Below, piece by piece: positions 5,851 through 56,783 of a stretch of DNA of 64,000 bases. The first letter of the stretch is position 1; every line of letters starts with the position of its first letter. Position numbers and translations under genes: made by a program. The notes beneath the pieces were generated by a model. The model was not told where the DNA came from, ran no database searches, and saw nothing but the letters and a program-made list of their open reading frames with translations. This DNA is from Prescottella agglutinans. GTDB lineage: Bacteria > Actinomycetota > Actinomycetes > Mycobacteriales > Mycobacteriaceae. The stretch spans positions 1 through 64,000 of the forward strand of contig NZ_RKLP01000008.1 of the NCBI RefSeq assembly GCF_004011865.1, given 5' to 3'.

Positions 5851-6165
5851 GCCCGGCCGCCGACCCCGGGACCGGTGCCCGAAAGGGCGACCGGCAGTAG
5901 GTCCGGGAGGGGCTGGATCGCACCGCCTCGGGAGTGCCGGGTCGTGGCGACAGCATGCGCCGGCAGGCGACGGTCCGGATATCCCCCGAGCGAGGGATGG
6001 TTCCGGGTCCGGTCCCGGGCCCACACTGGCGGTAATCACACATCACGCCGACACGGGAGGCACGGCAATCGCGTTCAGGCCCCGAATCGCGCACGCCGAA
6101 CCCGGTGAGCGCTGGGGTGACGCGTGGCGTGTGACCCCCGACGTCAAATGCAAGAGGGCCGCATC
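5851..6165. other. Intergenic region, no gene seen
   Basis: 315 bp between the transporter and the exported protein gene. An imperfect hairpin (CCGGTGCCC, GAAA loop, GGGCGACCGG) near 5872-5895 could end the transporter transcript. The right part should hold the promoter of the 6.2-10.4 kb operon, but I see no confident -10/-35 pair. Open frames here lack conserved sequence. Confidence 0.4.
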
Positions 6166-12700: not shown

Positions 12701-14905
<2,205 letters not shown>

Positions 14906-15020
14906 CCGCGGGCGGGCCGAAGCCGCCAATCCCGCCACGGCGGTCGTATCGGGACGGTAGCGTGACCTGCGTTCGTGTCGGGATCTGTCATTCGGTACTC
15001 GCACCGGAGGAGGCGCTCGT

Positions 15021-15653
15021 ATGGGGGCCGGACCGCAGAACAGCTCACAACGTCGTCACGGGGCCGCGCGCCGGACACTCGTCGTCGCGACCGCGTTCAC
15101 GGCGCTGACCGTCGCATTCGCCGGCAACGCCGGCGCCGACCCCGTCGCGGCTGCTCCGGCGTGCTCGCCGATCCGGGCGGAGGGGCTGCTGGCGAACCTC
15201 ACCGACGCGGTGGCACCGGGGCTCGAGCTGCCGGTGCCGTGCCAGGACGCGGTCGGAGTCGGCTACGTCGGCTCCGCCGACCTGACCGCCGGCGCGGTCG
15301 GTGCCGCCGTCGTGGCCGGGCTGGGGAGCCTCGCCCTGGCCACCGCCGACTGGAGCAGTATCGACTTCGACAACAACGGCCCGAACAACACCGGCTCCTA
15401 CAACACGGGCTCGGCGAACACCGGCTCCGACAACGTCGGGTGGGCCAACACGGGTTCGGCCAATGTGGGCTCGGCGAACACGGGTTCCGGCAACGTCGGC
15501 TCGGCGAACACCGGCTCCGGCAACGTCGGCTCGGCGAACACCGGTTCGGTCAACCTGGGGTCGATGAACACCGGATCGGCGACCTACGGCTCGATGAAGA
15601 CGGGCATCGGCTCGCTGGCCGCCGGCTCGTTGGGTATCGGCACGCTCAGCTGA
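15021..15653 (+). CDS. Secreted pentapeptide-repeat protein (NTGSx/NxGSA type)
   Basis: 210 residues. A signal peptide (RRTLVVATAF..., ending about residue 34 at NAGADP) precedes a 75-residue region with four Cys-free helices' worth of small residues and two early Cys. Residues about 114-195 are tandem 5-mers: NTGSY, NTGSA, NTGSD, NVGWA, NTGSA, NVGSA and so on. This resembles the NxGxx repeats of mycobacterial PPE-MPTR proteins but without a PPE domain. GGAGGAGG stands 6-7 bases before the ATG. Located 120 bp upstream of glfT2, so possibly an envelope protein; in M. tuberculosis the repetitive exported protein Erp also lies by the glf genes. Confidence 0.8.
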   Translation: MGAGPQNSSQRRHGAARRTLVVATAFTALTVAFAGNAGADPVAAAPACSPIRAEGLLANLTDAVAPGLELPVPCQDAVGVGYVGSADLTAGAVGAAVVAGLGSLALATADWSSIDFDNNGPNNTGSYNTGSANTGSDNVGWANTGSANVGSANTGSGNVGSANTGSGNVGSANTGSVNLGSMNTGSATYGSMKTGIGSLAAGSLGIGTLS

Positions 15654-15772
15654 GGTCGCGGTCACCCCGGCACTCATCTACGCGGGAGGGATCGGTGCTG
15701 GGTTGATACCCTTTCCGACGCGGGTGGGGCACTGCGTTCCGCCACAAATGTCGGGACAAATCTAGGAGCGGA

Positions 15773-17662
15773 ATGAGCGAGTCGGCGTCGGTTGCACCTG
15801 TGGACGGGAGCGCGGCGGCCGCTCGCAGCGCAGTCCTCGAGCAGGGGTCCGCGGGACGACTCGTGGTGCAGCGAGGTGTCTTCTCCGGTCCCACGCCGCG
15901 CGTCAAGGACGGCATGTACGCCCAGATCACGACCGGTTCCGGACACCGTGAGCGCTTCGCCCTCCACCTCGACAAGGGCGCCGTCGCGGACACCGACGCC
16001 TACTTCGGGCGCTTCGCGGCCGCCTACTACCAGCGCTGGACCACCGTCGACGAGGTCGAGGTCCGGTTCGGCCACTCCGCGACCGGTCGCGGCCGCGCCC
16101 TGCTGTGCGCGTCGGACTCCGGCGGCAACGTGCGCGTCCTCGAGACCGTCGACGTGGACGGAGACGGCACCGCGACGATGTCCGCGAAGCTCGACGCGTA
16201 CCTCGACGGCGGTTCGCTGTGGCTGCAGTTCGCCGCGATCGACGGCCGACTCGAGGTGCGCGATCTGGAGTGGACGGTCGCGGCCCCGTCGGTGATCCGG
16301 CCCGCCGCCATCGCGATCTGCACGTTCAACCGCGCCGACGACTGCGCGCAGACGGTCGCGGCCATCGCCGGCGATGCGGGCATGACCGCCGGTATCGACG
16401 CGGTCTACGTCGTCGACCAGGGCACCGACCACGTCTCCGACCGGCAGCTGTTCGCCGAGGTCGCGAAGACGCTGGGCGACAAGCTCGTCTACATCCGCCA
16501 GCCCAATCTCGGTGGCGCGGGCGGCTTCACCCGCGGCATCTACGAGGTGTCGGCGGTCAACGAGCACGCCAACGTGATCCTGATGGACGACGACATCCTG
16601 TGCGAGCCGGAGACGGTGCTGCGCATGAACGCGTTCGCGAACGTCACGATGGAACCGATGCTCGTCGGCGCGCAGATGCTGTACCTGATGAACCCGCAGA
16701 ACCTGCACGTCGGTGCGGAGGAAGCGGACCTGTCGAAGATCAAGGCCGGCGAGTGGGCGGCCAACTCGCTGCACGACGCCAACATGCTCAAGCGGCGCCA
16801 GAACAAGCGCGTCGACGCCGGCTACAACGCCTGGTGGTCGTGCCTGATCCCCGGCGAGGTGATCTCGCGGATCGGTCTTCCCCTTCCCGTCTTCTTCCAG
16901 TGGGACGACATCGAGTACGGAATCCGTGCTCGTGCAGCGGGATTCATCACGGTTACCCTGCCGAATGCCGGTGTGTGGCACGCGGACTTCCACTGGAAGG
17001 ACCGCGACGACTGGGCCAAGTACTTCAGCGTGCGGAACTCGCTGATCGCGTCCGCGCTGCACAGCGACTTCGACACGAAGGCGCTCAGCGTGACGATGGG
17101 CCGCGAGATCTCCCAGTTCCTGGTGTCGATGCAGTACGGCCTCGCGCACACGATGCTGCGCGGCATCGAGGACTTCCTCGCCGGCCCCGACGTGCTCGAG
17201 GACGGCGGCCAGGCGGTCCTGGGCGCGATCCGCCAGGAACGCTCACGCTTCCCCGAGACCGTCAAGCATCCGGCCGGCGCCATCCCCGGCATCCGGTCCG
17301 CCGACCTGGTCACGCGGATCGCCGGTCCCGAGCCGGACCAGGATCGCGAGGACCTGGTCCTGGCCAAGCGCGCCGCGATGCAGTGGCTCGGTCGCACGCA
17401 GCACGGAATCGCGAGCATCCCTGCGTCGGAAGCGCATTGGTGGCACGTTTCGCTGTTCGATCATGCCGTGGTGACCGACGCGTCGCAGTCCGGCGTGCGG
17501 GTGCGTCGCCGCGACAAGGACGCGGCGAAGGAGATCACCACCCGGATGGCGAAGGTGCTCAAGCAGTTCCGGGAGCAGGGTTCGGACGTCCAGCGCCGGT
17601 ACCGCGAGGCCGTGCCGCGGCTGACGAGTCGGGAGAACTGGGAGCGCCTCTACGAGAAGTGA
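15773..17662 (+). CDS. glfT2: Galactofuranosyltransferase GlfT2
   Basis: Polymerises the galactan chain of arabinogalactan from UDP-galactofuranose on the cytoplasmic face, alternating 1,5 and 1,6 links. 629 residues, the family length. An N-terminal jelly-roll (to about 170) precedes a GT2/GT-A domain with NLGGAGGFTRGIYE, the metal-binding ILMDDDILCEPE, WDDIEYGIRA with the catalytic acid, and WHADFHWKDRDD. GGAGCGGA precedes the ATG. It acts after GlfT1 (19.1-20.0 kb) and before export by the 20-21.7 kb ABC transporter. Confidence 0.96.
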   Translation: MSESASVAPVDGSAAAARSAVLEQGSAGRLVVQRGVFSGPTPRVKDGMYAQITTGSGHRERFALHLDKGAVADTDAYFGRFAAAYYQRWTTVDEVEVRFGHSATGRGRALLCASDSGGNVRVLETVDVDGDGTATMSAKLDAYLDGGSLWLQFAAIDGRLEVRDLEWTVAAPSVIRPAAIAICTFNRADDCAQTVAAIAGDAGMTAGIDAVYVVDQGTDHVSDRQLFAEVAKTLGDKLVYIRQPNLGGAGGFTRGIYEVSAVNEHANVILMDDDILCEPETVLRMNAFANVTMEPMLVGAQMLYLMNPQNLHVGAEEADLSKIKAGEWAANSLHDANMLKRRQNKRVDAGYNAWWSCLIPGEVISRIGLPLPVFFQWDDIEYGIRARAAGFITVTLPNAGVWHADFHWKDRDDWAKYFSVRNSLIASALHSDFDTKALSVTMGREISQFLVSMQYGLAHTMLRGIEDFLAGPDVLEDGGQAVLGAIRQERSRFPETVKHPAGAIPGIRSADLVTRIAGPEPDQDREDLVLAKRAAMQWLGRTQHGIASIPASEAHWWHVSLFDHAVVTDASQSGVRVRRRDKDAAKEITTRMAKVLKQFREQGSDVQRRYREAVPRLTSRENWERLYEK

Positions 17663-17674
17663 TCCGACGCAGGA

Positions 17675-18535
17675 TCATTCACGTAGCCGGACCACGACCT
17701 GTTCGTGGTTCGCGGTGTACGCGAGGTAGTCGAACTGGGTTCCGGTTCGGGTGACGAACTCGGTCCAGGCGCGGTGCTCGTGGTTCTGCCAGCCCGGGTA
17801 GTTGAAGTACTCGTCGAACACGAGCACCGAGCCGGGCACCAGGCGGTCGCCGATCAGGTCGAGCACCGTGCGGGTCGAGGAGTACAGGTCGGCGTCGAGG
17901 TGCGCGAAGGCCACCGGGCCGGGATGGTCGGCGAGGAAACCGGGCAGGGTGTCCTCGAACAGGCCCGACACCAGCTGCGCGCCCGGCACCGACGGCACCG
18001 ACTGCTGCGCGAACTCGCCCGCCGGGAAGCCGGTCCGCCACGCCTCCGGCAGGCCCGACCAGACGTCGAATCCCCACACCTCGTGGCCGGTGGGACGCAG
18101 TGATTCGGTGATGATCCGCAGTGTCGTGCCGGTCGCGACGCCGAACTCGAGCGCCAGGCCGTCGACCTTCACCTGCTCGAGCCCGTACCGCAGCGTCTCG
18201 TGCGGGTGCCAGAACACGGGGGACTTCGGCATGTGATCGAGCACGAACTGCGCGCTGTCGCCGGCGGCCCGGATGTCGAGTGCGTGCGAGATGTCGCGGC
18301 GGGTGCGCTGCTCGAGCTCGTTCAGGCGATCGCTGACCGCGGCCACCTGCCCGCGCGCCTGCGTCAGTTCGTCGAGCAGCCGTTTCATCTCGCCGTTGTT
18401 CGCGGCGAGCTCCGCCAGCAGCTGGTCGTGGCGGTTCTCGTGCTCGATCCGCGACTGGCGGTCGGAGTCGCGGACCACCTCCGCGACCGCCCGCTGCACC
18501 TTGAGCCGCGCTGACTTCCGGAATCGATCGAACAT
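17675..18535 (-). CDS. TylF/MycF-type SAM methyltransferase with N-terminal coiled coil
   Basis: 286 residues. The first ~100 are charged heptad-like helix (RLNELEQRTRR and similar), probably a coiled coil. The remainder is a class I methyltransferase of the macrocin-O-methyltransferase type: LEFGVATGTTLRI is the SAM loop, and FAHLDADLYSST plus VFDEYFNYPGW carry the metal-binding Asp residues. It probably O-methylates a sugar hydroxyl. Beside glfT2 (convergent) and the galactan operon, a cell-wall or glycolipid sugar is a reasonable target, as inference. Start taken at MFDRF (18535), with GAGAGGGG about 12 bases upstream. Confidence 0.8.
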   Translation of the reverse strand: MFDRFRKSARLKVQRAVAEVVRDSDRQSRIEHENRHDQLLAELAANNGEMKRLLDELTQARGQVAAVSDRLNELEQRTRRDISHALDIRAAGDSAQFVLDHMPKSPVFWHPHETLRYGLEQVKVDGLALEFGVATGTTLRIITESLRPTGHEVWGFDVWSGLPEAWRTGFPAGEFAQQSVPSVPGAQLVSGLFEDTLPGFLADHPGPVAFAHLDADLYSSTRTVLDLIGDRLVPGSVLVFDEYFNYPGWQNHEHRAWTEFVTRTGTQFDYLAYTANHEQVVVRLRE

Positions 18536-18856
18536 GCGTGTGGCACCCCTCTCGCCTGTGAGCGTCGAGTTCGGCTCCCATGCTGCCAGGGTTCCGCCGA
18601 CGGCGCCGGGGCAACAGCGGGTGAGTTGTGGGCGCGGACGGCGTGCTCCCCGCCCGGCCGGTTTGCCGGAATTGCCTTGTGACCGGTTTGTTCGGGCGAT
18701 ACGCTTGGGGCGTTCGCCGCGGGGCCGGCAATCTTGTGTAGGCGCCCACATCCAGATCTCGCGACCATCCCGCTGTGGCAGGCGCACAGGTGTCGATGCC
18801 GACTCCTGGTGGGGTGTGCGTCTTTCTCGAAGAGCTTCCGAGAGAAGTGTTCTGCC
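18536..18856. other. Divergent intergenic region
   Basis: 321 bp between the methyltransferase (leftward) and the small exported peptide (rightward); it must hold both promoters. I see short inverted arms around CCGGTTTGCCGG and AT-poor sequence, but no reliable -10/-35 pair. Open frames through it have no recognisable product. Confidence 0.35.
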
Positions 18857-19009
18857 ATGTACGTCAAGAGGATCGTGTGCGCCGTATTCGCGGCGGGTCT
18901 CGTCGCTCTGCCGGTCGTCGGGGCCGTCGGCGAAGCGACGGCGGCCGTGCCCAACCACGCCGACTGTGTCTGGTGCGACTCCGACGGAAACTGCGCCGAC
19001 TACTGCTGA
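18857..19009 (+). CDS. Small exported Cys-rich peptide
   Basis: 50 residues, below common gene-calling size. MYVKRIVCAVFAAGLVALPV is a textbook signal peptide, with likely cleavage after ATA or TAA near residue 29. The predicted mature peptide is about 21 residues, acidic, with four Cys in the pattern CxxCxxxxxCxxxC at its end. GAGAGAAG lies about ten bases before the ATG. Two disulfides or a metal site are possible. No homologue is recognised. It stands alone between the methyltransferase and glfT1. Confidence 0.62.
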   Translation: MYVKRIVCAVFAAGLVALPVVGAVGEATAAVPNHADCVWCDSDGNCADYC

Positions 19010-19103
19010 CGTTCGAAGGCGTCAGAGGTCGATCGAAAGGAACTCCGCGACAACAACGTTCGCGAGATGCTCCCCGGCCGAGCGGCGGTGACGGGGCAGG
19101 GGG

Positions 19104-19991
19104 TCACGGCCGCTGGAACCGCTCCCGACGGCCCAAGCCGCGCAATCGCATCCACTCGACGAAACCCTTGGGGTCGCGCTGGTCGACGAGAAAGTACCAG
19201 CCGAAGCGCGCGTACTCCTGCGGCAGCAGCTTGCGCATCCCCGGCTGCGACATCAGGTAGCCGCGGTTCCGGTAGGTGAAGTAGCGCTTCGTCTCGTTGT
19301 CCGGGTACTGCGTGTGCATCCGGCCGCCGAGGATCGGCTTGAACTCGTCGGCGCCGTCGGGGTGCAGGTACGCGGTCTGCAGGCACGTGCCGAACGGCAG
19401 CCCGGAGCGGACCAGGCGGCGGTGCACCTCGACCTCGTCGCCGCGGACGAACAGGCGCAGGTCCGGGACGCCGACGGAATCGATCGCGGCCGCCGAGAAC
19501 AGTGCGCCGTTGAACAGCGACGCGATACCGGGCAGCAGGTCCTCGTCACCCAACTCCGAACGCCACCGCTTCCATTCGACGCCGCGGCGCAGCGGGAACG
19601 CGAGCCGCTCCGGCTGGTCGATGTCGCACACGACGGGGGAGACCTCGGCGAGATTGTGTCGCTTCGCGCAGGCCAGCAGGGTCGCGAGCACCTCCGGGCC
19701 CTCGGGGCGGCCGTCGTCGTCGGCGCACCACACCCAGTCGGCGCCCAGCGACAGCGCGTACAGGATGCCGAGCGCGAAACCGCCGGCACCGCCGAGGTTG
19801 TGCTTGGAGCCCAGGTACGTGACGGGGACATCGGCACCCTCGACCAGTTCGCGGACCTCGGGCTCGTCGGCGTTGTCGACGACGACGAGATGGTCGAGCG
19901 GCCGGCTCTGCCCGGCGAGCACCTTCAGCGACTGGGCGAGCAGTTCGCGGCGCTTGTGGGTGACGACGACGCCGACGATCCGTTCGGTCAC
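19104..19991 (-). CDS. glfT1: Galactofuranosyltransferase GlfT1
   Basis: Adds the first galactofuranose residues to the rhamnosyl linker lipid, priming the galactan for GlfT2. 295 residues. GT2 signatures: RIVGVVVTHKRRELL at the start, NLGGAGGFALGILY, the metal site WCADDDGRPEG, and RGDEVEVHRRL with the catalytic acid. The GTG start at 19991 overlaps the ABC ATPase stop by GTGA, so it is the last gene of a permease-ATPase-glfT1 operon. A very long open frame running on to 22640 is rejected as antisense-like read-through of the high-GC neighbours. Confidence 0.94.
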   Translation of the reverse strand: MTERIVGVVVTHKRRELLAQSLKVLAGQSRPLDHLVVVDNADEPEVRELVEGADVPVTYLGSKHNLGGAGGFALGILYALSLGADWVWCADDDGRPEGPEVLATLLACAKRHNLAEVSPVVCDIDQPERLAFPLRRGVEWKRWRSELGDEDLLPGIASLFNGALFSAAAIDSVGVPDLRLFVRGDEVEVHRRLVRSGLPFGTCLQTAYLHPDGADEFKPILGGRMHTQYPDNETKRYFTYRNRGYLMSQPGMRKLLPQEYARFGWYFLVDQRDPKGFVEWMRLRGLGRRERFQRP

Positions 19992-20815
19992 GAAGCCTTC
20001 TCCTGCTTGGATTCCTGCGCCTCTTTCTCCATGTCCGCGATGACCTGGCGGACGTGGTCGGCGGCGTCGTCGCCCTCGTAGGCGCGCACGACGTCCTCGA
20101 TCTCGCCGTGCATCCGCACCTGGCCGTGGTCGATCCACATCGCGCTGTCGCACAGCTGGGCCAGGAACTCGTTGGAGTGGCTGGCGAACACGAGGATGCC
20201 GGAGCGCTCCACCAACTTCTGCAGGCGGATCCGGGCCTTCTTCATGAACTCGGCGTCGACCGCGCCGATGCCCTCGTCGAGCAGCAGGATCTCGGGGTCG
20301 ATGCTGGTGACCACGCCCATCGCGACACGCACGCGCATGCCCGTCGAGTAGGTGCGCAGCGGCATGTTCAGGTACTCGCCGAGTTCGGTGAAGTCGGCGA
20401 TCTCGTCCATCTTCGCCAGCATCTGCTTGCGGGTCTGTCCCAGGAACAGGCCGCGGATGATGATGTTCTCGTACCCGGAGATCTCCGGGTCCATGCCGAC
20501 ACCGAGATCGAAGACCGGTGCGACGCGGCCGCGGACCCGGGCGCTGCCGCGGGTCGGTTCGTAGATCCCGGACAGCAGTCGCAGCAGCGTGGACTTGCCG
20601 GCGCCGTTGTGACCGACCAGCCCGACGCGGTCGCCCTCCTTGAGCGACATGGTGATGTCGCGCAGCGCCTCGACCACGATTACGTCCGAGTCGGTGCGGC
20701 CGATCGAGCCGCCGGCCTTGCCGAGGAACGCCTTCTTCAGCGACCGCGACTTGGCGTCGAAGATGGGAAAGTCGACGCACGCGCCCCGCGTCTCGATGCT
20801 CACATTGCTGGTCAT
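19988..20815 (-). CDS. Galactan ABC exporter, ATP-binding subunit (Wzt-like)
   Basis: 275 residues, orthologue of the mycobacterial rfbE/wzt (Rv3781) type by context and sequence. Walker A is GHNGAGKST, the signature region is YSTGMRVRVAMG, Walker B is EILLLDEGIGAVD, and the H-loop is FASHS. It powers flipping of lipid-linked galactan across the plasma membrane together with the permease 12 bp upstream. It lacks the long C-terminal carbohydrate-binding domain of O-antigen Wzt proteins. Confidence 0.92.
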   Translation of the reverse strand: MTSNVSIETRGACVDFPIFDAKSRSLKKAFLGKAGGSIGRTDSDVIVVEALRDITMSLKEGDRVGLVGHNGAGKSTLLRLLSGIYEPTRGSARVRGRVAPVFDLGVGMDPEISGYENIIIRGLFLGQTRKQMLAKMDEIADFTELGEYLNMPLRTYSTGMRVRVAMGVVTSIDPEILLLDEGIGAVDAEFMKKARIRLQKLVERSGILVFASHSNEFLAQLCDSAMWIDHGQVRMHGEIEDVVRAYEGDDAADHVRQVIADMEKEAQESKQEKAS

Positions 20816-20827
20816 ATCGGTGGCCCC

Positions 20828-21709
20828 TTACACCCAGTAGGCCACGCGGGCCCGGTACTTGCGCAGCGCGAGGATCGCGATCGCCCAGCCGATGACGGTG
20901 ATGCCCAGCACGATGTACCAGTGGTAGGCCTGCTGGTCCTTGCCGAGCATCGGCGCGCGAACGATTTCGAGGAAGTGGAACAGCGGGTTCAGTTCGGCGA
21001 TCTTCGCGCGCTCGGCGACCTGCCCGCCCTGTGCCTTGAGGGCCTCGGTGGACCAGAAGATCGGGGTGAGCACGAACAGCAGCAGCGTGAGACTGCCGAG
21101 GATCGGCGCGATGTCGCGGTAGCGGGTGGCGAAGATGCCGAACACGATCGACACCCACAGCGCATTGAGCACCAGCAGGCCCAGCGCCGGGATCGCGGCG
21201 AGGTCGGGCCAGGTCAGATTCCGCCACACACCGAACGCGACCAGCATGATCACGTAGATCACCATGTTGTGCGCGAAGAACAGAATCTGTCGCCACACCA
21301 GGCGGTAGACGTGCACGCTCAGCGCCGACGGCAACTGCTTGATCAGACCCTCGTTGGCGATGAACACCTCGGAGCCCTCGAGGATCGACGCGCTGATCAT
21401 GCTCCACACGATCAGTCCGACGGTGACGTACGGCAGGAACTCCTTGATGGACATCCCCAGCAGCGCCGAGTACAGGATGCCCATCGCGGTGGCCTGCACG
21501 CCGGTGGCGATGGTGATCCAGAACGGGCCGATCACCGACCGGCGGTACCGCTGCTTGATGTCCTGCCAGCCCAGGTTGAGCCACAGCTCGCGCTGCGCGA
21601 ACCCGTCGCGCATGTCCTGGAACGCGCGACGGAACGTCTGCGAATCGGACACGACGACGTCGGTGTCGGCGTCTGACGCCGGCTGGTGATCCAAGGCTGC
21701 TGCTGACAC
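20828..21709 (-). CDS. Galactan ABC exporter, permease subunit (Wzm-like)
   Basis: 293 residues, six predicted membrane helices, ABC-2 type permease as in polysaccharide exporters (mycobacterial rfbD/wzm, Rv3783). Before helix 1 it has RELWLNLGWQDIKQRYRRS-like sequence, typical of Wzm, and helix segments such as VTVGLIVWSMISASI and LRKYRARVAYWV at the C-terminus. First gene of the operon with the ATPase and glfT1. The ATG start 21709 is followed by a 30-residue polar N-terminus. Confidence 0.9.
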   Translation of the reverse strand: MSAAALDHQPASDADTDVVVSDSQTFRRAFQDMRDGFAQRELWLNLGWQDIKQRYRRSVIGPFWITIATGVQATAMGILYSALLGMSIKEFLPYVTVGLIVWSMISASILEGSEVFIANEGLIKQLPSALSVHVYRLVWRQILFFAHNMVIYVIMLVAFGVWRNLTWPDLAAIPALGLLVLNALWVSIVFGIFATRYRDIAPILGSLTLLLFVLTPIFWSTEALKAQGGQVAERAKIAELNPLFHFLEIVRAPMLGKDQQAYHWYIVLGITVIGWAIAILALRKYRARVAYWV

Positions 21710-21763
21710 GAGTTCCGAGCCTACCGCTCGCGGTGTGATTGCCCGCGAGACCGTGGTGCGCGG

Positions 21764-22345
21764 CTACAGGTACTGGCCGGTTCCCGGCGACGGCGAGTTG
21801 TCGTCGGACGCCTGCACGTGGTGCTGCGGCCCCATGCTCATCCCGGGCGGGAGCGCGCCCTGGCGCATCTGCTCGAGCTGGGCGCGCGCCGCCATCTGCT
21901 GCGCGAACAGCGCCGTCTGGATGCCGTGGAACAGGCCCTCGAGCCAACCGACCAGCTGTGCCTGAGCGATCCGCAGCTCGGCGTCGGTGGGCACCGAGTC
22001 GTCGTTGAACGGGAGCGTGAGCCGCTCGAGCTCCTCCCGCAGCTCGGGCGCCAGGCCCTGCTCGAGCTCGCGCACCGACGACTTGTGAATCTCCTTCAGT
22101 CGCGTGCGGCTCGCGTCGTCGAGCGGTGCGGCCCGCACCTCCTCGAGCAGCTGCTTGATCATCGTGCCGATGCGCATGACCTTCGCCGGCTGCTCCACCA
22201 TGTCGGTGAGCGCGTCCTGACCGTCCTGCTCGGATTCGGTACCGGGTGCGGCCTGGCCGCCGTCGGTGCGATCTCCACCGCCGATGGGCACGGGGTGGCC
22301 GTCGGGGCCGATCACGAGCACGCGTTCGTTCTCCGGTTGCGTCAT
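21764..22345 (-). CDS. bpa: Bacterial proteasome activator (Bpa/PafE)
   Basis: ATP-independent ring-shaped activator that opens the 20S proteasome gate and feeds it unfolded proteins. 193 residues, orthologous to Rv3780. The central helical bundle is about residues 45-150. The extreme C-terminus is GTGQYL; the GQYL tail is the gate-opening motif known for the M. tuberculosis protein. Start at MTQPEN (22345); the longer frame to 22399 has no conserved sequence. Its position next to the galactan operon matches mycobacterial synteny. Confidence 0.93.
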   Translation of the reverse strand: MTQPENERVLVIGPDGHPVPIGGGDRTDGGQAAPGTESEQDGQDALTDMVEQPAKVMRIGTMIKQLLEEVRAAPLDDASRTRLKEIHKSSVRELEQGLAPELREELERLTLPFNDDSVPTDAELRIAQAQLVGWLEGLFHGIQTALFAQQMAARAQLEQMRQGALPPGMSMGPQHHVQASDDNSPSPGTGQYL

Positions 22346-32603: not shown

Positions 32604-32690
32604 TTGGTGCGGCGGTCGTCGAGCGCGGAACCGGGGTGGCACCCGCATGGCAGCATGGTCTTGATCAAGCACCATTGCAGGAAGGCTCTC

Positions 32691-33749
32691 ATGCGTCACA
32701 CAGCCGCGCGCACGCTCGGCATCGGCCTCACGGCCGCTGCGCTCGTCCTCTCTCCGGCCGTCGTGGTGCCGCTGGCCGCCGCCGCGCCGGACACGGGCCC
32801 GCTGGGCCTGGCGCCGATGGGCGTGGTTCCCGCGTCCGAGTCCGCCATCCAGCAGCAGTTCGGTGCTCCCGGACCGCACGCCGTCAGCCAGACCCGCACC
32901 ACGCAGGACTGCGTGGGCCTGACCGACCTGTACGTCCGCGTCTTGCGCCTCGGTTTCGACGTGCAGGACGAGGTGGAGTGCTTCGGCACCTTCCCCGACG
33001 CCGGCCTGCGCAGCCCCGTCGGCGCGGAGTTCTACTACCCCGAGGACATCGCGGAACTGGGCGCGCTGCCACTCGTGCTGTGGACGCCCGGCATCCTGGT
33101 CGAACCCGGAATCTACGACTCCACCGCCCGGTACCTCGCGAGCCACGGCTACGTCGTCGCGGTCAACTACTCGCTCGTCAACTGGTTCGGCCTCACCCAC
33201 GAGATGGGTGCGCAGGCCGCGGCGGCGGCGAACGTCGACGCGACCAGTCCGCTGCACGGCCACATCGATCTCGCGCGGACGGTCGTCGCGGGACATTCCG
33301 CCGGTGGCGGCTCGGCGCTGGTCTCCGGCGGTCGCCTGCAGGGGGTCGGGCAGCAGTTCGCCCCGGAGTTCCGCGTCGTCGGCGCCCTCGCGATCGAACC
33401 CGGACCCGCGACCCTCGGCGTCGGCGTGCCACCGTCGGCGGTGCCGACCCTGATCGTCACCGGCAGTTCGGATTTCATCGTGCACCCCTCGGGCTGGCCC
33501 GCGCTCGTCCAGTATCCGCAGGTGCAGGCCCCCGCGTGGCTCACGACGGTCCGTGGTGCGAGCCACGGAAAACCCATGGACGGCCCCGGCAACTCGGTGT
33601 TCCCGGCCCTCGAGGTCGCGTTCCTCGACTACGTGACGAAGGATTCGGCCGACGCGGCGCAGGTTTTCGTCGGCCCCGACTACGCCCTCGCCACCGACGG
33701 CGCCCTCGTGAACACCCACCGCAACGCCCAGGCCGACGCACTGGGCTAG
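32691..33749 (+). CDS. Secreted alpha/beta hydrolase (lipase/cutinase-like)
   Basis: 352 residues with a signal peptide (MRHTAARTLGIGLTAAALVL, cleavage near AAAAP). The nucleophile elbow is GHSAGGGSAL, the acid is probably Asp in TGSSDFIVHP and the base His in RGASHGKPM. The layout is that of PET-hydrolase/cutinase-like or Streptomyces-type lipases, but with an unusual 60-residue segment before the core. ATG 32691 is preceded by CAGGAAGG; the longer frame from 32604 would bury the signal peptide. Confidence 0.8.
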   Translation: MRHTAARTLGIGLTAAALVLSPAVVVPLAAAAPDTGPLGLAPMGVVPASESAIQQQFGAPGPHAVSQTRTTQDCVGLTDLYVRVLRLGFDVQDEVECFGTFPDAGLRSPVGAEFYYPEDIAELGALPLVLWTPGILVEPGIYDSTARYLASHGYVVAVNYSLVNWFGLTHEMGAQAAAAANVDATSPLHGHIDLARTVVAGHSAGGGSALVSGGRLQGVGQQFAPEFRVVGALAIEPGPATLGVGVPPSAVPTLIVTGSSDFIVHPSGWPALVQYPQVQAPAWLTTVRGASHGKPMDGPGNSVFPALEVAFLDYVTKDSADAAQVFVGPDYALATDGALVNTHRNAQADALG

Positions 33750-38547: not shown

Positions 38548-38575
38548 CTTCTGGGAAGTTCTCGGAAGGTTCACC
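38548..38575 (+). promoter_or_regulatory. Tandem PHO-box-like repeats before the VTC operon
   Basis: CTTCTGG, GTTCTCG and GTTCACC units begin at 38548, 38558 and 38569, spaced by 10 and 11 bp. GTTCACC is the unit of actinobacterial PhoP/PHO boxes. It lies 55-82 bp upstream of the polyphosphate-polymerase-domain gene. Regulator assignment is inference. Confidence 0.4.
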
Positions 38576-38629
38576 GGCTGTAGTGGTGGCGTTCATCTGC
38601 CCTTACGACCGCCAGGAGACCGCCATCCG

Positions 38630-39544
38630 ATGAGCTTCCTCGACCGATTCCGGGATCCGCCCGCCCCGCGGCACGGCCGAACGGCCGAGGACGTGCCCAC
38701 CGCGCCGGTGGGCTACCAGCAGACCGCCAGCAAGTTGCACGCGTTCAACCGCTACGAGATCAAGTACTTCGTCGACGAGCTGCGGGTACCCGAACTGCGC
38801 AGTGAGCTGACGGCCCGCATGGACACCGACCCGTACTCCCCGCACGGGGGATACCCGGTGACATCGCTCTACTACGACACCCCCGATCTGCGCTTCTACT
38901 GGGAGAAGATCGAGGGGCTGAAGTTCCGGCGCAAGCTCCGCATGCGACTCTACGGTGCGCCGGCCCAGTGCACGGACGAGACCGTCGTGCAGGTGGAGAT
39001 CAAGCAGCGGGTGAACCGCGTCACGCAGAAGCGTCGCATCGCGCTGCCCTACGGTGTTGCGCGGCGGCTGCTCGACGGCCGAGAAGACATCTTGTGTGAC
39101 CCCGTGCAGCGGCCGTTCGTGAACGAGGTGGCCACACTCATCGGCAACCTCGACCTGCGGCCCACCGTCACGACGGGCTACCTGCGGGAGGCGTTCGTCG
39201 GCCGGGACGCCGACCTGGGCCTGCGGGTGACGATCGATCACAAGGTGCACGGCCGCGACCGCGACTTCCACTTCGCGTCGGACGCCACCAACCGCTTCAT
39301 CATCCCGCCGAAATTGGCCATCGTCGAACTCAAGGCCAACGAACGGGTTCCGTACTGGGCCACGGATCTGACGGCCCGGCTGAACATGTCCGTGATCCGG
39401 GTGTCCAAGTACTGCCAGTCGGTCGAGGCGTTCGCGAGGGCTCCCCGTTCGCGCTCGGGTGCACCGGAATTGGTGCTGCCGCCCGGTGCGGACGATCTCG
39501 TCCCGGCCGACGTGCTGGACGCGCCCGTCCCGGCCGTCGACTGA
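38630..39544 (+). CDS. VTC-domain (polyphosphate polymerase-like) protein
   Basis: 304 residues. The VTC domain is a tunnel-fold triphosphate-binding barrel that in yeast Vtc4 makes polyphosphate from ATP. Landmarks: FNRYEIKYFVDE with the Lys of strand 1, PVTSLYYDTPDLRFY, KFRRKLRMRLYG with the basic Lys/Arg row, VQVEIKQRVNRV, and KLAIVELKANERVPYW near the end with the metal-binding Glu. The basic and acidic tunnel residues appear retained, so activity is plausible. ATG 38630 with AGGAGA upstream. First gene of the VTC-DUF4956-CotH operon (33-bp gap to the next). Confidence 0.87.
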   Translation: MSFLDRFRDPPAPRHGRTAEDVPTAPVGYQQTASKLHAFNRYEIKYFVDELRVPELRSELTARMDTDPYSPHGGYPVTSLYYDTPDLRFYWEKIEGLKFRRKLRMRLYGAPAQCTDETVVQVEIKQRVNRVTQKRRIALPYGVARRLLDGREDILCDPVQRPFVNEVATLIGNLDLRPTVTTGYLREAFVGRDADLGLRVTIDHKVHGRDRDFHFASDATNRFIIPPKLAIVELKANERVPYWATDLTARLNMSVIRVSKYCQSVEAFARAPRSRSGAPELVLPPGADDLVPADVLDAPVPAVD

Positions 39545-39577
39545 AGCCTCCTCCCGAAACAACCGAACAGGACCACC

Positions 39578-40255
39578 ATGAACTTCGATCTCCAAGATCT
39601 CAGTGGCACTTTCACGACGTTCGACATCATCGCCTCGTTGGCGCTGTCGTTCGTCCTCGCCGCCATCGTCGGCTGGGTGTACCGCTACACCCACAAGAAC
39701 GTCTCCTACAGCCAGTCCTACGTGCAGACGCTGGTGATGGTGGGCATGATCGTCTCGCTCATCATGCTCGTCGTCGGATCGAACATCGCCCGGGCGTTCG
39801 CCCTGGTCGGCGCGCTGTCGGTGATCCGATTCCGCAATGCCATCAAGGAAACCCGCGATGTCGGCTTCATCTTCCTGGTGATGGCGATCGGTATGACCAC
39901 CGGCACCCGGTTCTACCTGCTGGCGATCGCGGCGACCGCGGCGATCTGCCTGGTGATGCTGATCATGAGCAAGTTCAACTGGTTCAAGCTCGACGTCCAG
40001 CGCCAGGTCGTGAAGGTGCAGGTGCCGCCGGAGCAGGAGTACACCGCGCTGGTCGAGGACGTGCTGATCCAGCAGTGCGCGGAGTTCGAGCTGGTGTCGA
40101 CCGAGGCCGTCCGATCGGGTGCGCTGCACGAGTTGTACTACACGGCGCAGCTGAAGAAGGGGCGTAAGCCGGCCGAACTGATCGCCGCACTCAGCGCGAT
40201 CAATGCGGGCCAGCGGGTGACCGTCCTGACCGGGTACGACCAGACGGACATCTGA
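39578..40255 (+). CDS. DUF4956 membrane protein
   Basis: 225 residues. Four or five membrane helices within residues 13-135 (IIASLALSFVLAAIVGWVYR, MVGMIVSLIMLVVG and others) with the conserved loop ALVGALSVIRFRNAIKETRD, then a C-terminal cytoplasmic domain of about 90 residues. DUF4956 proteins recur next to VTC and CotH genes but have no assigned function; a channel or exporter for the product of the VTC protein is a fair guess. The stop overlaps the CotH start (TGATG). Confidence 0.85.
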   Translation: MNFDLQDLSGTFTTFDIIASLALSFVLAAIVGWVYRYTHKNVSYSQSYVQTLVMVGMIVSLIMLVVGSNIARAFALVGALSVIRFRNAIKETRDVGFIFLVMAIGMTTGTRFYLLAIAATAAICLVMLIMSKFNWFKLDVQRQVVKVQVPPEQEYTALVEDVLIQQCAEFELVSTEAVRSGALHELYYTAQLKKGRKPAELIAALSAINAGQRVTVLTGYDQTDI

Positions 40256-41979
40256 TGTCGACGACGAACACCGCCGGCCCGCCGACACCCAGACGCAGAC
40301 TCCGGCATCGGATTCCGACATCGCTGCGCCAGCACTGGAAGCTGCTGACGGTGTTCGTCGCCTTCGTGACGATCATGGCGACGGTCTTCGGGGCCGCCCG
40401 CATCCGCCCGTACATCACCGGTGACGCGTCGGTGATCGCCTCGCCGATCACCGAGAACATCGCCGGCGCCGTGGACCTGTTCGACCTCACGGTGAATCAC
40501 GATCTGTCCTTGGACATTCCGGCCGCCGAGTTGAGCGACATGCTGTCCACCTACGAGAAGTCCGGCGACAAGAAGTGGGTGAACGCCACCGCCACCATCG
40601 ACGGCACCGTCGTCACCGACGTGGCCGTGCGACTCAAGGGCAACTCGACGCTCATGGCGCTGCGCGGCGACGGCGCCGGCTTCCCGGGCGGTGGAATACA
40701 GCCCCCGGAGGGGTTCGAGCCACCCGAGGGCTTCCAGCTGCCGGACGGGGTCACGATGCCCGGCGGTGACGGGATGCCTCAGATGCCAGAGGGATTCGCG
40801 CCGCCCGGCGGAATGGCCGGCGGGATGGCGTCCGTGTCCGCCGACGACCCGACCTCGCTGCCGCTGCTGCTGAGCTTCGACGAGTACGTCGAGGGCCGCG
40901 CGTACCAGGGGCTCACGGAACTCTCGGTGCGTCCCGGCACCCCGGTCCTGAACGAGGCGATGGCGCTGTCGCTGACCGAGGCGACCGACCAGCCGACGCA
41001 ACGCTTCTCGTACTCCGTCTACTCGATCAACGACAGTGCGACGACGACTCGGCTGCTTCTCGAGCACCCCGACGACGGGTACGCCAACTCTCTGTTCGAG
41101 TCGGACGGCTACCTCTACAAGGCCGACGCGAACTCGCGGTTCGCCTACGTCGACGACGACCAGTCGTCGTACTCCGACCAGTTCAAGCAGATCAACGCCG
41201 TCGGATCGGGCAATCTGCAACCGATCATCAGCTTCCTGAAGTGGCTGGACTTGGCCGACGACACCCAGTTCGCGCAGGAACTGGACCAGTGGGTGGACGT
41301 GGAATCCTTCGCCCGCTACGTCGCCACGCAGAACCTGCTCGTCAACAGCGACGACATGGCCGGTCCCGGACAGAACTACTACCTCTGGTACGACCTCGAC
41401 ACGAAGAAGATCTCGGTGGTGTCCTGGGATCTCAACCTGGCCATGACCGGTTCCACCGACGCGGGCCCGCAGGACACCGTGTCGATGGGCCCGGGAGGCG
41501 CCCCCGGCAACGCGGTGGCGGGGACCGAGGGGACGGCTCCGGGCGGGCGGGGCGTGCCGCCCGGTGGCGCCGGAGCGCCTGGTGGCGCGGGCAGGCCCGG
41601 TGGCTTCGGTGTGCCGGGCGGCGGAATGCCCGGTGGGACAGGGGTACCCGATGGCGCACCCGCACCGGCCGGGACCGCGGGCGCCGAGGGGGCCGGACCG
41701 GTGGGCGACGGCCAGGGCGGTGGCATGCGCGGCGGCAACACCCTGAAGACGCGGTTCCTCGAGTCCGACGCCTTCGCCGACGTCTACGAGCAGGCCTACT
41801 GGGATCTCTACGAGCAGATGTACGCCGGCGGTCGCGCGACCGAGATCCTGGACGCGCTCGCGGGCACCGTGCCGACCAGTGACGGGCTCACCGCCGAGAC
41901 GCTGCAGAGCAGCGTCGACCAGATGCGCACGTGGATCGAGCAGCGGACCTCCGCTCTCGCCGCGAAGCGCGGACAGTGA
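40255..41979 (+). CDS. CotH-family kinase-like protein, membrane-anchored
   Basis: 574 residues. One N-terminal membrane helix (about 30-48) is followed by an outside-facing domain. CotH proteins are atypical kinases that phosphorylate secreted proteins in spore formers; related landmarks here are DVAVRLKGNSTL (nucleotide Lys region), QNLLVNSDDMAGPGQNYYLWYD and ISVVSWDLNLAM (metal-binding Asp). The domain is interrupted by two low-complexity inserts: PPEGF-type repeats near residues 143-190 and a Gly/Pro/Ala-rich stretch near 405-495. It starts inside the DUF4956 stop codon, so translation is coupled. Confidence 0.86.
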   Translation: MSTTNTAGPPTPRRRLRHRIPTSLRQHWKLLTVFVAFVTIMATVFGAARIRPYITGDASVIASPITENIAGAVDLFDLTVNHDLSLDIPAAELSDMLSTYEKSGDKKWVNATATIDGTVVTDVAVRLKGNSTLMALRGDGAGFPGGGIQPPEGFEPPEGFQLPDGVTMPGGDGMPQMPEGFAPPGGMAGGMASVSADDPTSLPLLLSFDEYVEGRAYQGLTELSVRPGTPVLNEAMALSLTEATDQPTQRFSYSVYSINDSATTTRLLLEHPDDGYANSLFESDGYLYKADANSRFAYVDDDQSSYSDQFKQINAVGSGNLQPIISFLKWLDLADDTQFAQELDQWVDVESFARYVATQNLLVNSDDMAGPGQNYYLWYDLDTKKISVVSWDLNLAMTGSTDAGPQDTVSMGPGGAPGNAVAGTEGTAPGGRGVPPGGAGAPGGAGRPGGFGVPGGGMPGGTGVPDGAPAPAGTAGAEGAGPVGDGQGGGMRGGNTLKTRFLESDAFADVYEQAYWDLYEQMYAGGRATEILDALAGTVPTSDGLTAETLQSSVDQMRTWIEQRTSALAAKRGQ

Positions 41980-42040: not shown

Positions 42041-43771
42041 TCAGTTCGGCGCCCCGAGCGAGATGCGGCCGGGCGCGGGCGGTGCGACGGGGGAGCGGTT
42101 CTGGAGGTACGACGTGAGCGCGTCGAGATCGTTTCCGGCGGAAGCGGGTTCGGTGCCGTCGCGCAGGACCGTGAAGCCGTCGCCGCCGTCGGCGAGGAAC
42201 TTGTTGACCGCGACCCGGTAGCGCTCGTCCGGTGCGACGGGCCGGCCGTCGACGTGGATGTCGGCGATGCGGGCCCCGACCGGGGCGCGGCGGTCGATGC
42301 GGTAGGTCAGCGACGCCGACGGCGCCAGGATCAGTTCCGCGGTGGACCCGTCGTCTCTGGCCTGGAACTGCTGTTCCAGAACATCTTTCAGTTGTGCCCC
42401 GGTGAGCGTGCGGACCTCGAGCGAGTTGAGGAACGGCTGCACCTGGTAGGCGTTGCCGTAGGTGATCGTGCCGTCGGCGTCGTGGAGCAGATCGGCGCGG
42501 ATGCCGCCGGGGTTGGTGAGCGCGATCTGCGCGCCGCGGCCGCGGGCCGCCTCGAGCTGCGAGTCGGCGATCAGGTCGCCGAGGGGGCTCTCGCCGCTCG
42601 GGGTCGGCTCGCGGGTGATGTCGTCGGTGACGGCGCCCACCGGCCGCTGGGCCACCTCGTCGGACTTCTTGCCGGCTCGGGCGACCAGGTCGGCGACCAT
42701 CGGGTCCGGGGAGATGTCGTGCGTGACGATCTGGTTGAACGCCCGGGTGCGTTCGCGATTCACCTCGCCGGTCCCGCGGTCGAGGACCATGTCCACGACC
42801 GAGACGATCCGCCCGTGCGAGGCGGCCTGCATCACCGGTCGCGGGTTCCCGGCGGGATCGTCGACCGTGCAGTTGAACTGCGCGTGGGTGTCGGCGGTGA
42901 AGATCGCGTCCACCTTGGGGGTCGCGCGGGTCGCGATCGTGAGCGCGGGGCCGTCGCCGAGATCGCACGAGTTGGGACCGCCGCCGGTGGCCTGGGTGTC
43001 GCCGCGGTGGAGCAGGACCACGATCGCGCGCACCCCGAGGAAGTCGAGTGTGTCCGCCGTGCGGTCGATCGCCTCGAGTTCGTCGCCGAACTGCAGTCCG
43101 GTGACCGCGTCGACGGCGATCTTGTCCGGCGCCTCGGACGACATCACGCCGATCACCCCGACGGGGACCCCGTCCACGTAGTCCACCGCGTACGGCAGCG
43201 CGGCCGGAACGCCGTCGGGGAAGGTCATGTTGGCGGCGAGCAGCGGGAACTGGGCGCCCTCGAACGACGGCTCGAACTGGCAGCCGTCCACCGGGTGGCA
43301 GCCGCCGGTCTGCATGCGGCGCAGCTCGCCGAATCCCTTGTCGAGTTCGTGGGTGCCGACCGAGGCGGCGTCGACGCCCATCAGATTGAGCAGGTCCACG
43401 GTCGGTTCGTCGTGAAACAACGCCGACTCGATCGACGAGGAGCCCCAGGCGTCGCCCGCCGAGTACAGCAGCGAGTTCGGGGCTTGCGCACGCAGTTGCT
43501 GCACGTACGCGGCCAGGTATGCGGCACCGCCCGCGTCGGTCGCCGGCCCGTCCGGCCGCGAGATCTGCGCGCGGGCGCCCCGGGGCGGCTTGAGGCTGCC
43601 GTGCAGATCGTTGATCGTCAGCAGCCGCACGGGGACGGTCTCGGGATCGTCGGCCGGCCGCGCCTCGGCGGCGTGGGCGCCGACGGTCAGCGAGGCCCCG
43701 AGCGCCGATGCGAGAGCCGCCGCCCTGAGTCGCCATCGGCGTCCGGACAAATGGTTCGCGGGTCGGCACAC
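42041..43771 (-). CDS. Secreted 5'-nucleotidase/metallophosphatase
   Basis: 576 residues with a signal peptide (RWRLRAAALASALGASLTV, cleavage near AHA/AEA). The N-terminal metallophosphatase has LLTINDLHG, SAGDAWGSSS and LLHRGD, and the C-terminal 5'-nucleotidase domain has NPGGIRADL and NKFLADGGDGF. It would release phosphate from extracellular nucleotides. Odd: the motif usually GNHEFD reads GTHELD, replacing the conserved Asn, and the usual GHxH reads TADTHAQF. The enzyme may be altered. It converges on the CotH gene. A TCTGCCA/TCTGGCA repeat lies just upstream. Confidence 0.86.
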   Translation of the reverse strand: MCRPANHLSGRRWRLRAAALASALGASLTVGAHAAEARPADDPETVPVRLLTINDLHGSLKPPRGARAQISRPDGPATDAGGAAYLAAYVQQLRAQAPNSLLYSAGDAWGSSSIESALFHDEPTVDLLNLMGVDAASVGTHELDKGFGELRRMQTGGCHPVDGCQFEPSFEGAQFPLLAANMTFPDGVPAALPYAVDYVDGVPVGVIGVMSSEAPDKIAVDAVTGLQFGDELEAIDRTADTLDFLGVRAIVVLLHRGDTQATGGGPNSCDLGDGPALTIATRATPKVDAIFTADTHAQFNCTVDDPAGNPRPVMQAASHGRIVSVVDMVLDRGTGEVNRERTRAFNQIVTHDISPDPMVADLVARAGKKSDEVAQRPVGAVTDDITREPTPSGESPLGDLIADSQLEAARGRGAQIALTNPGGIRADLLHDADGTITYGNAYQVQPFLNSLEVRTLTGAQLKDVLEQQFQARDDGSTAELILAPSASLTYRIDRRAPVGARIADIHVDGRPVAPDERYRVAVNKFLADGGDGFTVLRDGTEPASAGNDLDALTSYLQNRSPVAPPAPGRISLGAPN

Positions 43772-55682: not shown

Positions 55683-56783
55683 TTACCTCTTCGGGGCGGG
55701 CACGGGCAGTTCCATGCCGCGCTCGGTGAGGACGGTGCGCAGGCGGTCGGGGCGGTCGGTGATGATCCCGTCGACGCCGAGGTCCATCAACGCGTGCATG
55801 GTCTCCGGATCGTTGACGGTCCAGGGGATCACCTTGATGTCGCGGGCGTGCGCCGAGTCGACCATCTCCCTGGTCACGTACAGCGTGAAGTTCGGGTCCG
55901 ACACCTTGCCGCCCTGCGGGGTGCCCTGCACCGGCGAGAAGGCCGAGGCGCCGAACGTGGAGATTGCCGCGATCGCGTCGCCGCCGAAGTCGTCGATGTC
56001 GAGGCCACCGAGCCACGGCGACGCGCCGTCCTTGCCGACCTGCAGGAAGTCGCCGTTGGTGAGCGCGACGGTGGGCACCGACGGCTCGAGTTCGCGGGTG
56101 AGCATCAGGGCGCCCCAGTCGAAGCTCTGGATCGTGACGCGGTCGAGCATGCCGGCGTCGCGGATGGTGCCGAGGACGACGCGGACGAACTGGTCCCGCG
56201 GTGCGGTCTCGGACGGCGCACCGGCCTCCACCTTCGTCTCGATGTTCATCTTCACGTTCGGGGCGTCGTACGACTTCACGAGGTCGAACACCTCGGTCAG
56301 TGTCTGCATCTTCGCGCCCGGAACGGTCTGCTGCTCGGGATGATCCGCGAGCCGCAGCGAACCGCAGTCCATCGTCTTCACCTGTTCGAGCGTCAGGTCC
56401 TTGATGTACTTGCCGACGTACGGGAACTCCGGGTCGCCCGGGGTTGCCGGGGCGGTGTCCTGACACTTCTTGTCGGAGATCTTGCGGTCGTGCGTGACGA
56501 CGGCGATCCCGTCCTCGGTGATCTGGGTGTCGAGTTCGAGCGTGGTGACCCCCATTTCGAGGGCGTTGGCGAACGCCGCGAGGCTGCTCTCGATGTAGAG
56601 GCCCAGCCCGCCGCGGTGCGCCTGGACGTCGAAGGTGGGTTCGGTCAGCGACCCGGTGTCACCCAGCGAACCGGGCCAGTCGAGGCTTCCGGTCGCGGAG
56701 GCGGTGGCCGGGGTGAGGCCTGCGATCGGCACAGCGGCGAAGGAGGCAACGGCAAGAGCGGAAACGGCCCGACGGAAATTCAT
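55683..56783 (-). CDS. Secreted glycerophosphodiester phosphodiesterase
   Basis: 366 residues with a signal peptide (FRRAVSALAVASFAAVPIAG). GDPD TIM-barrel: VQAHRGGLGLYIESSLAAF has the catalytic His-Arg and Glu, LELDTQITEDGIAVVTHD the second His and metal ligands, and VIPWTVNDPETMHALMDLGVDGIITDRP closes the barrel. It releases sn-glycerol-3-phosphate and alcohol from extracellular glycerophosphodiesters. MNFRR 56783 is chosen over ATG 56822, which adds a proline-rich tail before the signal peptide. Confidence 0.9.
   Translation of the reverse strand: MNFRRAVSALAVASFAAVPIAGLTPATASATGSLDWPGSLGDTGSLTEPTFDVQAHRGGLGLYIESSLAAFANALEMGVTTLELDTQITEDGIAVVTHDRKISDKKCQDTAPATPGDPEFPYVGKYIKDLTLEQVKTMDCGSLRLADHPEQQTVPGAKMQTLTEVFDLVKSYDAPNVKMNIETKVEAGAPSETAPRDQFVRVVLGTIRDAGMLDRVTIQSFDWGALMLTRELEPSVPTVALTNGDFLQVGKDGASPWLGGLDIDDFGGDAIAAISTFGASAFSPVQGTPQGGKVSDPNFTLYVTREMVDSAHARDIKVIPWTVNDPETMHALMDLGVDGIITDRPDRLRTVLTERGMELPVPAPKR

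Follow-up and report, generated by a model that had tools for sequence, protein, structure and literature searches.

What might a polyphosphate-polymerase-like protein, a membrane protein of the DUF4956 family, which has no assigned function, and a CotH-type kinase do together in an actinobacterium? This question is raised by a three-gene operon of Prescottella agglutinans, which lies in the 64,000-nucleotide (nt) stretch analysed here as a whole and referred to as the window (positions 1 to 64,000 of the forward strand of contig NZ_RKLP01000008.1, assembly GCF_004011865.1). The three genes form a tight operon on the + strand and encode a VTC-type triphosphate-tunnel protein of 304 amino acids (38630..39544), a DUF4956 membrane protein of 225 amino acids (39578..40255) and a CotH-type kinase of 574 amino acids (40255..41979). 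A gap of 33 bp separates the first two genes, and the DUF4956 stop overlaps the CotH start in a TGATG (40253..40257, + strand), which may couple the translation of the two. An initial annotation had described the operon as a candidate system of unknown function, a machine that makes a phosphate polymer inside the cell, passes it through DUF4956 and uses it or ATP for phosphorylation at the surface; its positions, gap and overlap were all exact on re-check, and its three family assignments held, since each protein exceeds its Pfam cut-off. Our analysis describes a conserved, phosphate-linked operon whose three genes have been described together at Pel loci and whose free-standing form with Pho boxes is new here. 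We propose, with a probability of roughly 40%, that it encodes a phosphate-responsive envelope module around a tightly paired VTC-DUF4956 core.

The pairing is evident from the distribution of the families. Among 200 genomes of the order, VTC and DUF4956 occupy the identical 33 genomes (Fisher p 1.7e-38), and in the phylum, sampled with 296 genomes, each of the 32 genomes with VTC also carries DUF4956, the 33rd DUF4956 genome being one with a match below the cut-off. Both families were also found in the same 3 of 14 named control genomes. At the level of individual loci of the order sample, DUF4956 lies within 5 kb in 39/41 VTC loci, and VTC lies within 5 kb of 39/40 DUF4956 loci, the one exception beginning with the very first base of its contig. 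CotH is present in 17 of the 33 genomes with the pair, as against 4 of the 167 others (p 2.7e-12). Dividing the loci by their DUF4956 score gave two subtypes, A and B, which are labels of this analysis. Subtype A, that of the window, has the order VTC-DUF4956-CotH, with VTC and CotH within 5 kb in 10/10 loci. In subtype B the DUF4956 score is higher and DUF4956 comes first where we looked; VTC lies within 5 kb in 29/30 of these loci and CotH in 7/30, and the third gene encodes a Cthe_2159-type carbohydrate-binding protein in 4 of the 11 loci examined (3 of them Pfam-checked). A Paenibacillus locus likewise carries such a protein beside VTC-DUF4956. Since the pairing is nearly strict and CotH and Cthe_2159 vary, we regard the module as a VTC-DUF4956 core with a changeable, secreted-looking partner. 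The Cthe_2159 genes seen beside VTC-DUF4956 without CotH are, under our own locus numbers, L049:11427-13211, L050:10790-12532, L051:11189-12682, L053:10915-12750 (by clustering only) and L167:7646-9583.

Closer relatives were collected by scanning genomes with no other query than the DUF4956 alignment; of 309 confirmed candidates the best 80 were taken, a set biased to close relatives. VTC and CotH stand beside DUF4956 in all 80 of these named loci, in the order VTC-DUF4956-CotH in 77 and DUF4956-CotH-VTC in 3, and the closest by DUF4956 are mostly Rhodococcus, with up to 89% identity. Because the trio is present in 80/80 loci and the same 1-nt overlap of DUF4956 and CotH recurs in 45 of the 79 measured (window included), the linkage of the three genes is far from chance, and the co-occurrence that the initial annotation had put forward as a check is borne out. 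Genes in these neighbourhoods were called with a simple caller of our own, which shortened CotH in L057 and missed DUF4956 in L075 and L106, where the gene order was taken from the tblastn position. A metagenome-assembled genome labelled Gammaproteobacteria (L111) has the actinobacterial trio, with a DUF4956 68% identical to that of the window; probably the label is wrong or the sequence is contamination. Moreover, VTC adjoins DUF4956 in four of six plasmid loci fetched via DUF4956 (Paenibacillus, Planococcus, Pseudobutyrivibrio and Acetoanaerobium). On a Sinorhizobium meliloti plasmid, a DUF4956-like gene adjoins a caspase-like protease (PF00656; L170:4281-5906 and 5965-6660) and no VTC was seen; on a Hymenobacter plasmid, DUF4956 adjoins a protein of 359 amino acids without a Pfam match or a VTC match (L166:4844-6669), which is either another exception to the pairing or a diverged partner.

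The promoter of the operon carries a candidate signal of phosphate control. Upstream of the trio we found direct repeats of the form GTTCA-N6-GTTCA with an 11-nt period. The array of the window (38558..38601, + strand) reads GTTCTCGGAAG / GTTCACCGGCT / (GTAGTGGTGGC) / GTTCATCTGCC in 11-nt register, has one mismatch and places its first repeat 72 bp ahead of the start codon; an AGGAG, the likely ribosome-binding site of VTC, follows at 38614..38618 on the same strand, 11 bp before the ATG. The repeats correspond to the PHO box of Streptomyces PhoP, described as consisting of GTTCACC units (PMC4415409), and to the Microlunatus PolR site GTTCACnnnnnGTTCaC, which has been reported at the promoters of ppk, ppgk, pstS and two pit genes (PMC6754071). 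We compared 76 trio promoters, that of the window and those of 75 named loci, with other promoters of the same loci; the remaining five of the 80 were excluded because their DUF4956 gene had not been called, the sequence upstream was too short or the gap measured less than 60 bp. The exact box is present in 14/76 trio promoters versus 0/632 controls (p 9e-15), from which 35 divergent neighbours sharing the trio promoter region had been removed, whereby 5 exact control matches vanished. With at most one mismatch, the box occurs in 39/76 trio promoters versus 16/632 controls and in 20 of 30 genus-level groups, the genus labels being assigned by hand. Periods of 9, 10, 12 and 13 nt showed no enrichment at the trio promoters, so the 11-nt period is specific. 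A scoring matrix built from 45 sites of 25 of the 38 loci outside the window's relatives separated the 38 held-out promoters, window included, from 339 controls (p 2.6e-11), with 21/38 above the 5% false-positive threshold and 9/38 above that of 1%. By this matrix, trained on other families, the window array scores 12.6, which is above the 5% threshold (10.5) and below that of 1% (16.0).

Across the host genome, the density of sites with at most one mismatch predicts 0.007 per 250 bp; there are 145 such sites, versus 43 for the reversed pattern, and 6 are exact. One exact box (L135) lies upstream of a gene for a PstS-type binding protein (PF12849) and another (L134) where a phosphoesterase-like gene begins, one that scores just below the Metallophos cut-off. 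The other four are found inside called genes (L136, L138 and L139) or before a gene without evident phosphate link (L137); the gene around the L139 box is ABC-transporter-like, and its neighbour looks phosphoesterase-like by eye. We also considered the Pho box as a feature of all VTC-DUF4956 loci and found no support for this, since in subtype B only 2/26 loci have a box with at most one mismatch and none an exact one, in a 300-bp stretch set relative to the domain match instead of the start codon. A second connection to phosphate comes from four Rhodococcus loci among the 80, in which genes for DUF47 and a Pit phosphate transporter follow the trio (recognised by Pfam on L064 and L077 and by clustering on L070 and L079; a raw count), with VTC 23-25 bp before DUF47 in two of them. 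In two Rhodococcus loci (L077:12597-13433 and L079:12654-13517) the operon is rearranged to DUF4956-CotH-unknown protein-VTC-DUF47-Pit, and the inserted protein of L077 (278 amino acids) has no Pfam match at E<=0.001. Furthermore, a two-component system lies within three genes in 32/80 loci, likewise a raw count. The Pho boxes and the DUF47-Pit genes strengthen the phosphate link drawn in the initial annotation, and the promoter sequences suggest that the operon is switched by the phosphate-starvation response of the cell. Phosphate starvation would be an odd time for phosphate polymerisation. A regulator has, however, been reported to bind a box of this kind at ppk (PMC6754071), so Pho control is no argument against polymerisation.

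The VTC protein is a candidate polyphosphate polymerase. Its sole Pfam match at E<=0.1 is PF09359, with 158.5 bits versus a cut-off of 23, and a profile of 20 VTC relatives matched the structure of yeast Vtc4 (3g3q, E 1.1e-11). R104, R106 and E233 align with Vtc4 R264, R266 and E426, the residues mutated to obtain an inactive Vtc4 (PMC9911596). All three are invariant in both sets of aligned relatives (20/20 and 31/31). In addition, R41, K45, K125 and K134 pair with Vtc4 R196, K200, K281 and K294, and R186, R199, K235 and K260 with R361, R373, K428 and K458, which we take to have roles in Vtc4. The mapped Vtc4 residues are intact, whereas the initial annotation had named a non-functional tunnel as grounds for giving up its reading. 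The bacterial and yeast tunnels are not identical, because R100 and K102, invariant among the bacterial relatives, are alanines in Vtc4. The catalytic chain does not combine SPX and a Vtc1-type transmembrane domain in the manner of the eukaryotic VTC complex, and no SPX match was obtained.

For the DUF4956 protein, the match to PF16316 reaches 102.4 bits versus a cut-off of 30.6. Its AlphaFold2 model, built on a shallow alignment (mean column identity 81%), shows five helices, in line with the polytopic membrane protein of the initial annotation, followed by a C-terminal ACT/ferredoxin-like domain (mean predicted local distance difference test, pLDDT, 75; predicted template-modelling score 0.54). 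MgtC (PF02308) is matched at E<=0.01 by 48/49 aligned DUF4956 proteins, with a best E of 8.7e-7. As the match is weak and, for the window's protein, below the gathering cut-off (24.5 versus 31.4 bits), we do not assign DUF4956 to MgtC. The C-terminal domain of the model aligns with Mycobacterium tuberculosis MgtC (2lqj; Z 8.8, root-mean-square deviation 3.1, 87 aligned residues), a score tied with many other ACT/ferredoxin folds. A sequence-based search of the PDB found no relative, Vtc1 included, and the fold searches matched essentially the C-terminal domain and are therefore uninformative on the membrane part. The positive-inside charge pattern, with segment limits set by hand, favours a topology with the N-terminus outside and the C-terminus inside, which would place a basic loop (84-94) in the cytosol. 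Within this loop R84 and R86 are invariant in 19/19 sequences spanning both subtypes, and K90 and R93 are present in 49/49 sequences of the window's subtype. In yeast VTC, synthesis is coupled to translocation and a basic path leads to the channel (PMC9911596), a path which the putative cytosolic loop of DUF4956 recalls by analogy.

The third protein matches PF08757 with 98.8 bits versus a cut-off of 23.8, and its predicted model (mean pLDDT 77) superimposes on Bacillus cereus CotH (5jda) with Z 30.9 and a root-mean-square deviation of 3.1 over 333 aligned residues. D366 and D392 are invariant in 33/33 aligned proteins and align with two aspartates of 5jd9. These are spaced by 23 residues, like the catalytic aspartates D228 and D251 of B. 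subtilis CotH (PMC7821199), and we equate the two pairs by this spacing. Tested for two catalytic aspartates, the protein has them, by alignment, in D366 and D392. Seven basic and no acidic residues precede the one hydrophobic stretch, likely a single membrane anchor at ~30-48; from the basic N-terminus and the positive-inside rule, the kinase domain would lie outside the cell. Fold and anchor agree with the membrane-anchored, kinase-like protein expected from the initial annotation. Two stretches rich in proline, glycine and methionine (~144-190 and ~413-491) are of low confidence in the model. By eye, similar stretches (PGG, GGM) are seen in the Cthe_2159 protein L049:11427-13211 and also at L056:6804-8798 and L092:13382-14692; besides CotH and Cthe_2159, such products comprise a PMT_2/YkcB-type glycosyltransferase and an HlyD-type membrane-fusion protein.

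The same three families have been described together before, in 2020, as accessory genes of Pel loci in streptococci, clostridia and bifidobacteria (PMC7112168). In Streptococcus intermedius, SIR_1592-1594 correspond to cotH, PPP and DUF4956 at the pelDEADAFG locus (PMC7112168, PMC12345266). Pel rose when DUF4956 was deleted and fell in the cotH deletion, with aggregation reduced in both mutants; for the deletion of the VTC homologue no aggregation defect is reported (PMC12345266). The authors of this 2025 study state that their analyses found no trio arrangement outside the Pel locus (PMC12345266). PelG, the sole pel gene searched, exceeded its cut-off in 0/200 genomes of the order, the VTC-DUF4956 pair being present in 33 of them; one genome has a PelG match below the cut-off. 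A Pel locus behind the window operon was likewise rejected, as the host genome has no match to PelG. Judged by PelG, the trio is independent of Pel in this order, contrary to the 2025 statement. On the Planococcus plasmid it stands beside a HEAT-repeat gene and a glycosyltransferase, an arrangement resembling the NELoc-2 list of Clostridium perfringens (PMC2879425), and on the Pseudobutyrivibrio plasmid it is part of a polysaccharide cluster with GT2, GT4, an acyltransferase and pyruvyltransferases. With the trio found in PelG-free genomes and in these two plasmid contexts, Pel is one setting among several. Among the open-licence papers listed by our searches, we found none whose title or abstract presents the gene set as phosphate-regulated or free-standing; a paper on C. 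perfringens (PMC11677781) mentions two of the families in its text.

How could the module work? VTC may sit in the cytosol, bound to the membrane protein DUF4956, and use ATP to polymerise phosphate; the pair, as a relative of the yeast VTC complex divided over two proteins, would make polyphosphate at the membrane. Since VTC in these genomes never comes without one membrane protein, a complex explains the pairing best and the core would be a membrane-bound polyphosphate synthase. Its product could be pushed outward, or synthesis could be gated by the ACT-like domain of DUF4956. CotH, anchored and with its kinase domain outside, would phosphorylate surface proteins or glycopolymers, using ATP or, in the boldest step, exported polyphosphate. 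As for control, a PhoP/RegX3-type regulator would switch the operon through the Pho boxes. PPK1 is also encoded in the host genome, and bulk polyphosphate is therefore not likely the purpose of VTC-DUF4956. Several observations weigh against the proposed module. One is the presence of PPK1. Buried charges are few in the membrane part of DUF4956, whereas the pore of yeast VTC is basic, and the protein bears a closer resemblance to MgtC, a regulator-type family, than to the yeast channel. The pairing has exceptions, namely the 2/41 VTC loci of the order sample without a DUF4956 match within 5 kb and the Hymenobacter and Sinorhizobium plasmid loci (2/6), where DUF4956 has no VTC nearby. Nor is CotH obligate, as its presence in 7/30 subtype-B loci shows. 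Close to the window the Pho box is patchy, with a box of at most one mismatch in 3/15 Rhodococcus and 0/4 Gordonia loci, and the effects of the S. intermedius deletions do not look like one linear pathway. The phosphate machine of the initial annotation comes out of this in part: intact tunnel residues, co-occurring genes and the added phosphate evidence speak for it, while its channel, DUF4956, is more MgtC-like than VTC-channel-like. That polyphosphate is threaded through an MgtC-like DUF4956 and that the exported polymer is the phosphate donor of CotH for the cell surface seems to us distinctly doubtful.

The same data can be read with DUF4956 controlling the homeostasis of phosphate or ATP in the manner of MgtC and VTC supplying or measuring a cytosolic polyphosphate or ATP signal; nothing would be exported, and a co-regulated CotH would remodel the matrix with another phosphate donor. 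Nearly all aligned DUF4956 proteins match MgtC, the model aligns with 2lqj (tied with other folds), and PMC12345266 recounts that ATP synthase and PhoR are targets of MgtC in Salmonella; the Pho boxes and the nearby two-component systems would suit signalling. A DUF4956 that acts on general phosphate signalling would, however, have no reason to be paired so regularly with VTC, and the MgtC gathering score is not reached, so we find this explanation possible though somewhat unlikely. The Pel literature points in another direction, to the trio as a portable accessory of surface-polysaccharide production, serving a non-Pel polymer in actinobacteria, with CotH modifying or regulating the synthesis machinery. 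The occurrence of the trio in Pel loci (PMC7112168), the altered Pel of the CotH and DUF4956 mutants (PMC12345266), the Pseudobutyrivibrio cluster and the carbohydrate-binding protein in place of CotH in subtype B all fit, as does a pair of a GT2-GtrA and a PMT_2/YkcB-type glycosyltransferase near a few mycobacterial and Nonomuraea-type loci (4 and 5 of 80; one pair Pfam-checked). On the other hand, the recurrent neighbour clusters that we identified include no polysaccharide synthase, PelG is absent and the Pho boxes would be left unexplained, and we consider this unlikely.

Tunnel enzymes show varied activities, and VTC could also be a tunnel-type triphosphatase or polyphosphate hydrolase in an operon that scavenges phosphate at the envelope, for which control by Pho boxes would be fitting. 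Against such an enzyme stand its membership in the VTC family at 158.5 bits and the Vtc4 residues it keeps, including the counterparts of R196 and K200, in place of ExExK, which we take to be the motif of hydrolytic tunnel relatives; scavenging is in our view improbable. The phosphate-responsive module around VTC-DUF4956 is the reading that we retain.

Beyond the trio, the host genome (5.43 Mb, 22 contigs) encodes one VTC and one CotH, and NCBIfam gave no match for any of the three operon proteins. A convergent 5'-nucleotidase gene, rightly noted as a neighbour in the initial annotation, adjoins the operon (42041-43771, - strand; PF02872, 132.5 bits; signal peptide judged by eye). It was considered as a fourth component and left out of the system, because no homologue at E<=1e-3 is among the genes called around the trio in the 80 relatives, where some neighbourhoods end at contig ends. 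Another phosphate-related gene of the window, ~14 kb off, encodes a glycerophosphodiester phosphodiesterase (55683-56732; PF03009, 145.9 bits). Elsewhere in the window there is a cell-wall sugar region (2776-4250 and 13910-22345) with an epimerase/dehydratase, an ABC exporter and a GlfT2 galactofuranosyltransferase by Pfam, the last in keeping with a mycolate actinobacterium, and RmlA/RmlC-like genes judged by eye, as well as a secreted-looking hydrolase with a match to a PETase-like Pfam family (32655-33749; 38.7 bits, cut-off 28).

The near-strict pairing leads to a direct hypothesis for DUF4956, namely that it is the partner of a VTC polymerase, and the Pho boxes point to a condition under which this can be probed in actinobacteria. 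To our knowledge, bacterial VTC proteins have received little attention in comparison with PPK1 and PPK2. The phosphate supply of extracytoplasmic kinases is an open problem, and a polyphosphate-fed CotH, if true, would explain how a kinase works outside the cell, where ATP is scarce or absent. Bacteria would then own a split VTC complex, and polyphosphate-fed surface phosphorylation would be a function of the Pho regulon. The view of the trio as confined to the Pel locus is corrected.

Set beside known systems, the operon shares with the Gram-positive Pel accessory genes the same three families (PMC7112168, PMC12345266), but it has no PelG match in its genome, carries Pho boxes upstream and is free-standing across actinobacteria. 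With the yeast VTC complex (Vtc1/Vtc3/Vtc4) it has in common a catalytic tunnel domain in which the mapped residues agree and, as we infer here, a membrane partner; unlike in yeast, an SPX match is lacking, polymerase and membrane part are divided over two proteins and DUF4956 resembles MgtC. The kinase has the fold of the Bacillus spore-coat CotH in its model (Z 30.9) and both catalytic aspartates, whereas it is likely membrane-anchored, contains inserts rich in proline, glycine and methionine and is encoded with phosphate-type partners. Finally, DUF4956 is like the MgtC family in its helical membrane part, its ACT-like domain and a weak sequence match, and differs from it in scoring below the family cut-off and in being paired with VTC in the actinobacterial samples.

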